The position numbers and the translations under genes were made by a program. A stretch of 35,600 nt of DNA from Persephonella sp. (GTDB lineage Bacteria; Aquificota; Aquificia; Aquificales; Hydrogenothermaceae): positions 1-35,600 of the forward strand of contig NZ_WFPS01000040.1 of NCBI RefSeq assembly GCF_015487465.1, written 5' to 3'. Below the pieces are notes generated by a model, which was not told the DNA's origin, did not search any database, and saw nothing but the letters and a program-made list of their open reading frames with translations. Shown piece after piece: positions 30,750-34,242 of the stretch (within the stretch, counting starts at the first letter, position 1; every line of letters begins with the position of its first letter).

Positions 30750-31265
30750 ATGAGAAGGATAGTTCTGTCTTTACTCCTGTTTTTAGTCTTTTTTCTTGTA
30801 TCTCATGCCGAAAAGGGAGTTTACAAGGCTTATGTTTATTTTATACCTGTCGGTGAGATCACATTCAGTCTGGAAAAGGACAGGATACTGGTCAGAGGAG
30901 AAACATACAAAAGTTTAAGATGGATATACAACTACACATTCAGGTTTGAGGCAAACAACAAGGGATACTTCCTTTATGAAAAAGAAAATAAAAAAGAAAA
31001 GATATACAAAAACAAACAGATAGAAGAAAAAAAACCGTGGCTACCTTTGATAGTAAAATACATAAAAGAAGGTAAAAAACCTGATACAGATAAAGATCCT
31101 GACTTTCCTTATAGAATAGAAGAAAAAGGAGATACAGTTTTTATATACCCTTTAAAAAGCAAAAATGTCAAAAAAATAAGATTAAAACTTTCAAAAAACA
31201 GCAGACTTCCTGAAAAGATAGAAATAGACGGAAAAATTGATATTAAACTGGAAAGAATTAAATGA
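30750..31265 (+). CDS. Secreted protein, possibly DUF3108-like
   Basis: A 171-residue exported protein: the signal peptide (about 1-20, MRRIVLSLLLFLVFFLVSHA) precedes a beta-strand-rich mature chain with many Lys and Glu residues. The pattern YKAYVYFIPVGEITFSLE, then YNYTFRFEANNKGYFLYE, and a closing strand pair resembles DUF3108 envelope proteins, but this is a weak resemblance. GAAGGT lies just before the ATG. The 3' end overlaps the opposing JAMM gene by eight bases. Periplasmic location is well supported; function is unknown. Confidence 0.65.
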   Translation: MRRIVLSLLLFLVFFLVSHAEKGVYKAYVYFIPVGEITFSLEKDRILVRGETYKSLRWIYNYTFRFEANNKGYFLYEKENKKEKIYKNKQIEEKKPWLPLIVKYIKEGKKPDTDKDPDFPYRIEEKGDTVFIYPLKSKNVKKIRLKLSKNSRLPEKIEIDGKIDIKLERIK

Positions 31266-31677
31266 TCTCCACCATCTCTTCCTCAAATTTTTCCCCTTTC
31301 AGTTCCCAGCTTCTCCAGTTATCAGCTTTTCCGTTTTTTACAGATAGGATTATGTAAGACATGTCAGGCTGGGCAAATCTAAGGTCTGTCTGTGAAGGTC
31401 TGTCCGGGTGATCAGGGTGTGTATGGTAAATACCAACAATAGTTAATCCTTTACTTTCTGCATGCTCCTCAGCTTTCAGATAATCTTTAGGATCTATCTC
31501 AAATCTGTCATTTGCCCTTTCTTTGTTTTTATTTTCAACCTGAAATGCCTCAAAAACTGTTCTTGTGTTGTTTGAGTAATCTATTTCTCCGATAAGAAAA
31601 CCACAAATCTCAAATGGATAGCCTTCTTCACCCTGCTTTTTTATCTGATCAACAACATGTTTTTCTATTCTAAGCAT
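31258..31677 (-). CDS. JAMM/MPN+ zinc metalloprotease (Mov34 family)
   Basis: A 139-residue protein of the Mov34/MPN/PAD-1 family. The zinc and catalytic set is complete: Glu23 (PFEICGFLIG), His85 and His87 (IYHTHPDHP), Ser95 and Asp98 (RPSQTD). Bacterial stand-alone members cleave isopeptide-like or C-terminal extensions, for example activating ubiquitin-like sulfur carriers in thiamine, molybdopterin or cysteine pathways (Mec+). No such carrier is adjacent, so the substrate is unknown. It diverges from lipB with 30 bases between starts. Confidence 0.88.
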   Translation of the reverse strand: MLRIEKHVVDQIKKQGEEGYPFEICGFLIGEIDYSNNTRTVFEAFQVENKNKERANDRFEIDPKDYLKAEEHAESKGLTIVGIYHTHPDHPDRPSQTDLRFAQPDMSYIILSVKNGKADNWRSWELKGEKFEEEMVEII

Positions 31678-31707: not shown

Positions 31708-32313
31708 ATGAAGATTTTAGACATTGGAAAGACCAATTATGAAGATGCTCTGAAATTGCAAAAAAGTTTATTTGACCAGAAGGTAAAGGATCCGTGTAGT
31801 GAAGATATAATCCTTATTACAGAGCATTATCCTGTTTATACCCTCGGTAAAACCTCAAAAGAGGAGCATATCATAAATATTCCAGAAAATATTCCTGTTT
31901 ACAAAATTGAAAGGGGAGGTAGTATAACCTTTCATGGAGAAGGTCAGATAGTTGTTTACCCTGTTGTTCATCTGAAAGGGAAAAAACGGTCAGTAAGAAA
32001 TTTTATATGGACATTGGAAGAGATAATGATAAGAACAGTCCAGGAGTTTGGTATAAATGGTTTCAGACTGGACAGATACAGGGGGGTTTTTACACCAAAA
32101 GGGAAGATCGGTTTTGTTGGGATAAAGGTTTCAAGGCATATCTCTTACCACGGCATATCCCTCAATATAAGTGTGGATAAAAATTTTTTCAGAAAAATAC
32201 TTCCATGTGGTATAAAGGATATACCTGTTTGCAACATGTCAGACTTTGTTGGTGATGTTGACCTTGAAAATGTTAAACAGATATTAATAAAAAACATCAA
32301 ACAACTTCTTTAG
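31708..32313 (+). CDS. lipB: Octanoyl-ACP:protein octanoyltransferase LipB
   Basis: Moves octanoyl groups from acyl carrier protein to lipoyl domains, the first step of lipoate cofactor assembly. The 201 residues contain RGGSITFHGEGQIVVYPV (69-86), the invariant lysine Lys140 in GFVGIKVSRHISYHG, and the acyl-accepting Cys167 in ILPCGI, the usual Cys/Lys pair. The ATG at 31708 follows TATAAT by six bases and lacks a ribosome binding site, implying leaderless translation. The dapF-like gene follows after eight bases with its own AGGAGG. Confidence 0.93.
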   Translation: MKILDIGKTNYEDALKLQKSLFDQKVKDPCSEDIILITEHYPVYTLGKTSKEEHIINIPENIPVYKIERGGSITFHGEGQIVVYPVVHLKGKKRSVRNFIWTLEEIMIRTVQEFGINGFRLDRYRGVFTPKGKIGFVGIKVSRHISYHGISLNISVDKNFFRKILPCGIKDIPVCNMSDFVGDVDLENVKQILIKNIKQLL

Positions 32314-32321
32314 GAGGAATT

Positions 32322-33185
32322 ATGGAAAGGAATTTTTTTGCAAAATTTCACGGGCTTGGGAATGATTATATATGTTTAGATGAGGACTGGATTGATTTTG
32401 TCCTTGATGAAAATGCTGTAAAAACAATCTGTGATGTTCATTACGGAGTAGGATCAGATGGAATTCTTGTGAAGACCCATTCATCAAAAGCTGATTTTGG
32501 TTTAAGGATATTTAACCCTGATGGTTCTGAAGCTGAAAAAAGCGGAAATGGACTGAGGATCTTTGCAAAGTTTCTGTATGATTACGAATACACCCTAAAA
32601 AGAAAGTTCTCAATAGAAACGAAAGGAGGGATCGTTCAGGCAACTATTGAAGAACTTGTTGAAGGCAGGGCAAAACTGATCACAGTTGATATGGGAAAGG
32701 CAGTTTTTAATGCTCAGGACATACCTGTTTTGTGTGATGAGAAAGAATGTCTGGGAAAAAAGATCAAAATAAATGATAGAGAGTTTGAGATAAACTGCGT
32801 ATCTGTAGGAAATCCCCACTGTGTGATTATTGTAGATCAACTTGATGAAAACACAGTTAAAGAATACGGCAGTCTCATAGAAAATCTTGATATATTTCCA
32901 AACAGAATTAATGTCCAGTTTGCGAAAGTAATATCACCTGATCTTGTGGAAATAAGAATATGGGAAAGGGGAGCAGGTTATACACTTGCTTCAGGAAGCT
33001 CCTCCTGTGCTGTTGCCTCTGTTATGGTTAAAAAAGGTTTGACAGATAGAAATCTTACAGTAAAAATGCCAGGAGGAACCTTAAAAATTCAGATAGATCA
33101 AAACTGGAACATAAAAATGACAGGTGAAGTTCAGGAGATATGCTCAGGAAAACTCAGCAGAGAACTTACATCTCAGTTTATTTAG
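32322..33185 (+). CDS. DapF-fold protein with both catalytic cysteines replaced
   Basis: A 287-residue protein of the diaminopimelate epimerase fold: FAKFHGLGNDYICLD at the N-terminus, YGVGSDGILV (41-50), FNPDGSEAE, and VGNPHCVIIVD. True DapF uses two cysteines, in the ECGNGARC and ETLACGTGACA motifs. Here these read EKSGNGLRIF (Ser74) and GYTLASGSSSCA (Ser224), and the neighbouring Glu of GAGET is Tyr220. The codons are clear (AGC and TCA) and the frame is otherwise intact. Two-base epimerisation through thiolates should be impossible, so the gene is either a divergent isomerase, a ligand-binding relative, or uses another mechanism. It is eight bases after lipB with an AGGAGG site. Annotation as dapF by similarity would be unsafe. 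Confidence 0.85.
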   Translation: MERNFFAKFHGLGNDYICLDEDWIDFVLDENAVKTICDVHYGVGSDGILVKTHSSKADFGLRIFNPDGSEAEKSGNGLRIFAKFLYDYEYTLKRKFSIETKGGIVQATIEELVEGRAKLITVDMGKAVFNAQDIPVLCDEKECLGKKIKINDREFEINCVSVGNPHCVIIVDQLDENTVKEYGSLIENLDIFPNRINVQFAKVISPDLVEIRIWERGAGYTLASGSSSCAVASVMVKKGLTDRNLTVKMPGGTLKIQIDQNWNIKMTGEVQEICSGKLSRELTSQFI

Positions 33186-33975: not shown

Positions 33976-34242
33976 TCAATATTTTTGTTTCTCTGGAATA
34001 ACGCCCCTCACTCCACCTTCTGGATTCTCCATATCTCCCTTATATCTTGGAATTAAATGGATATGAAGATGCATTACAGTCTGTCCTGCAGACTTTCCTA
34101 TATTTATTCCGATATTGTATCCATCAGGATGAAACTTTTTATCCAGAAAGTCTTTAGCTTTGTCTATCAGCTCAATAAAAGCGGTCTTTTCTTCCTTTGT
34201 TGCATCAAAGTAGTTTTCAAAATGTCTGAAAGGAATTAGTTG
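33976..34242 (-). pseudogene. HIT-family hydrolase gene lacking its 5' end
   Basis: Leftward from 34242 an open frame encodes the C-terminal two-thirds of a histidine-triad protein: LIPFRHFENYFD, then a helix, NIGINIGKSAGQTVMHLHIH (the HxHxH triad), LIPRYKGDMENPEGGVRG and a stop at 33978-33976. The first 30 or so residues with the nucleotide-binding start are missing; a stop codon (TAA) stands three bases upstream in frame and there is no start codon or binding site. The break coincides with the promoter of the neighbouring rightward operon, suggesting insertion or recombination removed the 5' end. HIT enzymes hydrolyse nucleoside phosphoramidates or dinucleoside polyphosphates; this copy is probably inactive. 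Confidence 0.75.

Follow-up and report, generated by a model that had tools for sequence, protein, structure and literature searches.

DapF is the textbook two-thiol, cofactor-free epimerase, and inhibitors as well as a redox switch rely on its cysteines. The window analysed here (the whole stretch of 35,600 nucleotides) carries a dapF gene whose product has serine at both catalytic positions, which raises the question of whether such a protein can still convert LL- to meso-diaminopimelate (DAP), and if so, how.

A DapF-family gene with serine at both catalytic positions

We found that the dapF reading frame is intact, with AGGAGG just 5' of its ATG start, and that the translation of 32322-33185 has Ser74, Tyr220 and Ser224. 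The first catalytic stretch reads NPDGSEAEKS(74)GNGLRIFA and the second IWERGAGY(220)TLAS(224)GSSSCAVAS. The features referred to below are:

31708..32313, + strand: lipB (lipoyl/octanoyl transferase), upstream of dapF and in the same direction (TIGR00214, 161.1 bits, cut-off 83.55)
32308..32321, + strand: ribosome-binding stretch AGGAGG between lipB and dapF (direct reading)
32322..33185, + strand: dapF, Ser/Ser form, 287 aa (translation; family profile; AlphaFold and Foldseek)
32538..32540, + strand: codon of Lys73, clade-specific, adjoining Ser74
32541..32543, + strand: codon AGC of Ser74, aligned with catalytic Cys75 of Anabaena DapF (Cys73 of H. influenzae)
32964..32969, + strand: codons of Glu215 and Arg216, distal DAP recognition, kept (E and R in 175/175 Ser/Ser proteins)
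32991..32993, + strand: codon TCA of Ser224, aligned with catalytic Cys224 of Anabaena DapF (Cys217 of H. influenzae)
33000..33002, + strand: codon of Ser227, clade-specific; Gly in Cys/Cys forms

An earlier sequence-only reading had described an intact gene with both catalytic cysteines changed to serine. The full frame with AGGAGG before its ATG bears out the first point, and the translation and clade alignment bear out the second. That reading had also pointed to Tyr220 in place of glutamate; the tyrosine is there, but we rejected it as the key change since position 220 varies in both forms: 100 of the 118 Cys/Cys proteins compared have Glu there, but alignments give Ile for the Anabaena enzyme and Ala for that of Arabidopsis, two DapF proteins of solved structure, and Y, F, W, E or H occurs across the Ser/Ser clade. 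A nearby cysteine is unlikely to stand in as the base, because many relatives have Ser in place of C229 and residue 82 is variable.

With the NCBIfam equivalog model for DapF, TIGR00652, the product scores 251.5 bits (cut-off 114.65) over profile positions 3-269 of 270; with Pfam PF01678 it scores 192.9. It stays under the cut-offs of the bifunctional DapF/glutamate racemase model NF038284 (79.8 bits; cut-off 350) and of the PhzF family models (TIGR00654, 15.3 vs 76.2; PF02567, 16.9 vs 27). The solved structures closest to it in sequence are those of DapF enzymes, and the best Foldseek PDB matches of an AlphaFold model made with 46 relatives (mean pLDDT 96) are DapF structures as well (TM up to 0.89/0.93). 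The DAP-recognition residues N65, N164, N197, E215 and R216 are all present. With Ser74 and Ser224 the protein fails the strict two-cysteine definition of classical DapF; judged by its sequence, it is a variant of the DapF family and not a classical DapF by that definition.

The lipB stop is separated from the dapF start by 8 bases, and the two genes also adjoin in two relatives (L074 and L075). On the minus strand of the window, 31258-31677 gives a desampylase-type (JAMM) peptidase match under the curated cut-off, and 33976-34236 encodes the C-terminal part of a HIT-family protein (HLHIHLIPR) with no start. The latter gene looks cut at its 5' end, with unrelated sequence beyond about 34236.

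Conservation and spread of the Ser/Ser form

To place the two serines, we compared 175 Ser/Ser proteins of the main clade with 118 Cys/Cys proteins, keeping the remote plasmid proteins L192 and L193 apart. Positions 74 and 224 are each S in 175/175 Ser/Ser and C in 118/118 Cys/Cys proteins, and no mixed Ser/Cys pair occurs among them, so the Ser/Ser pair is not a product of chance. Within the host's family, the Hydrogenothermaceae, about 33 DapF proteins from ten genera were examined, and all are Ser/Ser at 64-94% identity; since these come from independent genomes, the pair is not a sequencing error either. An error of sequencing, assembly or annotation, or gene decay, is therefore exceedingly improbable: we found nothing in favour of it, and it is refuted by identical residues in dozens of independent assemblies, by full-length frames and by strong conservation across phyla.

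Further residues separate the two forms. Lys73 is found in 174/175 Ser/Ser proteins vs 0/118 Cys/Cys proteins, which carry Met (99), Leu (14), Gln (3) or Asn (2) there; the only Ser/Ser exception is Ile in L109, from a genome with other DapF copies. Residue 227 is Ser in 175/175 Ser/Ser proteins vs Gly in 118/118 Cys/Cys proteins, and Q199 is a clade marker (175/175 vs 0/118). Common to both forms are N14, N65, N197, E215, R216 and T221, while N164 is present in all Ser/Ser proteins. A tree built without the catalytic columns still puts a 100/98 branch between the Ser/Ser and the Cys/Cys proteins, without exception, with support of 88/96 for the main Ser/Ser group and 99/94 for the Hydrogenothermaceae within it; the Ser/Ser form is thus a clade, a point that the sequence-only reading had proposed to settle with a tree.

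A scan of a genome collection for AEKSGNGL and WERGAG[YF]T confirmed at least 558 loci, of which the best 80 were kept. All of these 80 are Ser/Ser, and their phyla include Bacteroidota, Ignavibacteriota, Bacillota, Dadabacteria, Rokubacteria/Methylomirabilota, Armatimonadota, Dictyoglomota, FCPU426 and others. Since such a scan is biased towards its own motif, two samples were drawn otherwise. In the Bacteroidota sample, each of 118 genomes holds exactly one DapF, and of 70 proteins whose residues were read, 68 are Cys/Cys and 2 are Ser/Ser, one of the two belonging to the sample's centre genome. For the phylum of G104, whose loci are labelled Rokubacteria and Methylomirabilota, a Ser/Ser profile gave 47 full-length high scores (401-437 bits), 11 low-scoring genomes, one genome with both, two with fragments only and three with none; among 50 proteins, 38 are Ser/Ser and 12 Cys/Cys. 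The Ser/Ser and Cys/Cys forms replace each other one for one in several phyla.

The Bacteroidota loci L245-L253 hold a very divergent Cys/Cys DapF with an AEGLL-like stretch at the usual GxGADG, in single copy per genome. Phage records gave ordinary matches only (34-38% identity) among the matches listed. In the open-access literature searched, we found no mention of a natural Ser/Ser or serine-for-cysteine DapF.

The epimerase step in Ser/Ser hosts

The host is a heat-loving, Persephonella-like member of the Hydrogenothermaceae; its genome (G000) measures 1.83 Mb and is 99.9% complete. Judging gene presence and absence by profile searches, we found exactly one DapF match in it; the second, Cys/Cys dapF that the sequence-only reading had suggested looking for was not found there. 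The makers of LL-DAP are present, namely DapD (NF008808, 362 over a cut-off of 204), DapC (TIGR03537, 579 over 454) and DapE (TIGR01900, 446 over 304). So are the users of meso-DAP, LysA (554 over 298) and MurE, the latter matching the DAP-ligase model NF001126 (583 over 373) and bearing the DNPR motif of meso-DAP MurE. No DAP dehydrogenase (Ddh) in G000 scores over the cut-off, with one weak partial match of about 40 positions, and the PLP racemase fold occurs in one alanine racemase-like protein, one YggS-like protein and two decarboxylases.

Hydrogenothermaceae are chemolithoautotrophs and must therefore make their own lysine. LysA works on the meso-DAP D-centre, so any cell that makes lysine and lacks Ddh depends on an epimerase step; this need exists in G000, with its LL-DAP makers, its meso-DAP users and no Ddh over the cut-off. 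The suggestion that meso-DAP synthesis proceeds in an unusual way is upheld at exactly this step, the sole DapF of G000 being Ser/Ser.

Across the Hydrogenothermaceae, dapF is single copy wherever the assembly is good. The DapF of two sister families is Cys/Cys, at about 30% identity. In the Aquificota genomes searched (G000-G060), DapL lies over its cut-off in both sister families and in none of the Hydrogenothermaceae, where only aminotransferases under the cut-off were found; the best DapL-like candidate there is alanine transaminase-like and was rejected, the route being DapD/DapC/DapE. In Aquificota, a switch of the DAP route, G000 having DapD/DapC/DapE, thus coincides with a switch of DapF type.

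Profile searches of 50 genomes with the Ser/Ser form showed 43 to be free of any further DapF and 49 to lack Ddh; Ddh was checked both here and in Aquificota, host LysA and MurE in Aquificota. The seven Ser/Ser genomes with more than one DapF are mostly Bacillota, and the six extra copies examined are Cys/Cys. Among the best 80 of at least 558 loci, BLAST places a DapL-like gene near dapF in 26, a LysA-like gene in 20 and one or both in 34, although four Dadabacterial DapL-like matches are weak (32-35% identity). Family models confirm DapL in Maribellus and in one Ignavibacteriota locus, and LysA in Tangfeifania. The gene order dapL-dapF-lysA occurs in several loci (e.g., L088, L106, L113, L126, L128 and L153). 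Since the Ser/Ser protein is usually the sole DapF and often lies near its pathway partners, it probably performs the normal DAP reaction by an undescribed route.

Other settings were also seen. Plasmids of Streptomyces sp. NBC_01216 (L323:10308-16006) and Agrobacterium vitis VAT03-9 (L324:10177-16113) share the order iron-containing redox enzyme, 2OG-Fe dioxygenase, remote Ser/Ser dapF, molybdopterin oxidoreductase and aldo/keto reductase, with an EamA transporter nearby. This looks like a specialised-metabolite cluster in which a Ser/Ser DapF relative may act on another amino acid. In Eubacterium multiforme (L123:525-4858), an extra Ser/Ser dapF follows genes for a protein like D-Ala-D-Ala ligase, for an ATP-grasp ligase whose C-terminal domain is of the LAL type and for an MFS transporter, and the same genome also holds a Cys/Cys DapF. 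Because several genomes, mostly Bacillota, have a Ser/Ser copy in addition to another DapF and two remote plasmid copies lie in an unrelated cluster, the scaffold can serve other roles.

The sequence-only reading had suggested such a role for the window protein itself, whether that of a new isomerase, of a lyase-like relative or of a binding protein. We think it quite unlikely that the protein is no DAP epimerase and instead acts on another amino acid as a racemase, isomerase or lyase, or serves to bind DAP, with meso-DAP supplied by another enzyme. The absence of both textbook catalytic residues would fit this, as would the non-lysine cluster around the remote plasmid homologues and the Bacillota copies that are extra to another DapF, one of them adjoining ATP-grasp ligases and a transporter. 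Against it stand the sole DapF, which takes the place of the Cys/Cys form one for one across several phyla, the kept DAP contacts, the dapL-like and lysA-like neighbours, hosts with LysA and meso-DAP-type MurE but no Ddh, and the single alanine racemase-like protein of G000.

Proposed mechanism and known relatives

The sequence, the clade, the sole copy, the pathway context and the kept DAP-contact residues are observed, and from them we infer the activity and every mechanistic step. On this basis, we consider it likely that the window dapF encodes a true LL/meso-DAP epimerase whose active site is free of cysteine. Its product would turn LL-DAP from DapD-DapC-DapE into meso-DAP, which would pass to LysA for lysine and to MurE for peptidoglycan. 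DAP would be bound as in ordinary DapF; in the Anabaena enzyme, the counterparts of N65, N164, N197, E215 and R216 grip the distal end of DAP (PMC12039745). Ordinary DapF works with a thiol and a thiolate, each at the N-terminus of a helix (PMC12039745), and the hydroxyls of Ser74 and Ser224 at these N-termini probably replace the thiols as acid/base groups on both faces of the alpha-carbon. Lys73, beside Ser74, and Ser227, at the second catalytic contact, probably aid in forming or holding an alkoxide or in relaying protons; since they are present only in the Ser/Ser clade, they are the best candidates for alkoxide supply. The backbone NH of Gly227 in Anabaena DapF touches the catalytic thiolate (PMC12039745). 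A speculative benefit would be escape from a disulfide switch such as C. glutamicum DapF forms with its two cysteines (PMC5296763). For the fuller proposal, that of a widespread natural cysteine-free DAP epimerase clade that is the sole DapF in most hosts and runs a Ser/Ser shuttle activated by Lys73 and Ser227, we see the chances as evenly balanced.

Chemistry and mutants of Cys-based enzymes count against a Ser/Ser epimerase. The hydroxyl of serine is a much weaker acid than a thiol. C67S or C209S strongly cuts the turnover of a histidine racemase (PMC11602996), and the C83A and C221A changes leave C. glutamicum DapF with almost no activity (PMC5296763). A natural-serine precedent comes from the proline racemase superfamily, where 4-hydroxyproline epimerase has Ser93 opposite Cys255 (PMC4113996).

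The protein may also epimerise DAP with something other than serine as one of its bases, Lys73 or another clade-specific residue taking the proton on one face while the serines position substrate or water. We regard this as unlikely, even though Lys73 is nearly invariant in Ser/Ser and missing from Cys/Cys proteins. The Pro-Glu-Met loop of Anabaena DapF, which lies directly before the first catalytic Cys and matches the Lys73 region, bends round the substrate, and no basic residue lies within 4 Å of the catalytic sulfurs according to its authors (PMC12039745). The corresponding loop of C. glutamicum DapF shifts on opening and closing (PMC5296763). On the other hand, L109 does with Ile at position 73, in a genome with other DapF copies, and the invariance of both serines in 175 proteins suggests that both matter.

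Compared with known systems, our preferred reading of a Ser/Ser DAP epimerase stands closest to classical DapF (Anabaena 9MRO, H. influenzae 1BWZ/1GQZ and P. aeruginosa 8QZY). The window protein resembles these in fold, length, DAP contacts, pathway context and catalytic helix N-termini, but has a Ser pair with Lys73 and Ser227 where they have a Cys pair with Met, Leu, Gln or Asn and with Gly. The H. influenzae mutants 2Q9H (C73S) and 2Q9J (C217S), both among the fold matches, also have Ser at one catalytic position; they are single laboratory mutants, whereas the window protein is natural, with both serines and other clade-specific residues. 4-Hydroxyproline 2-epimerase (Ser93/Cys255) has a related fold, a natural Ser at one catalytic position and active 1,1-proton transfer, yet belongs to another family with another substrate and retains one Cys (PMC4113996). 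The histidine racemases HisR and CntK (PMC11602996) and O-ureidoserine racemase (7VDY, among the PDB matches) are likewise cofactor-independent with a DapF-like fold, but are Cys-based and act on other substrates.

If the proposal is true, the thiol pair would be dispensable for the housekeeping reaction of DapF, and an essential pathway would have a second way of catalysing amino-acid epimerisation without PLP. The removal of an alpha-proton by a weak base would become testable in a natural enzyme pair, and genome annotation would have overlooked a distinct active site under one name.
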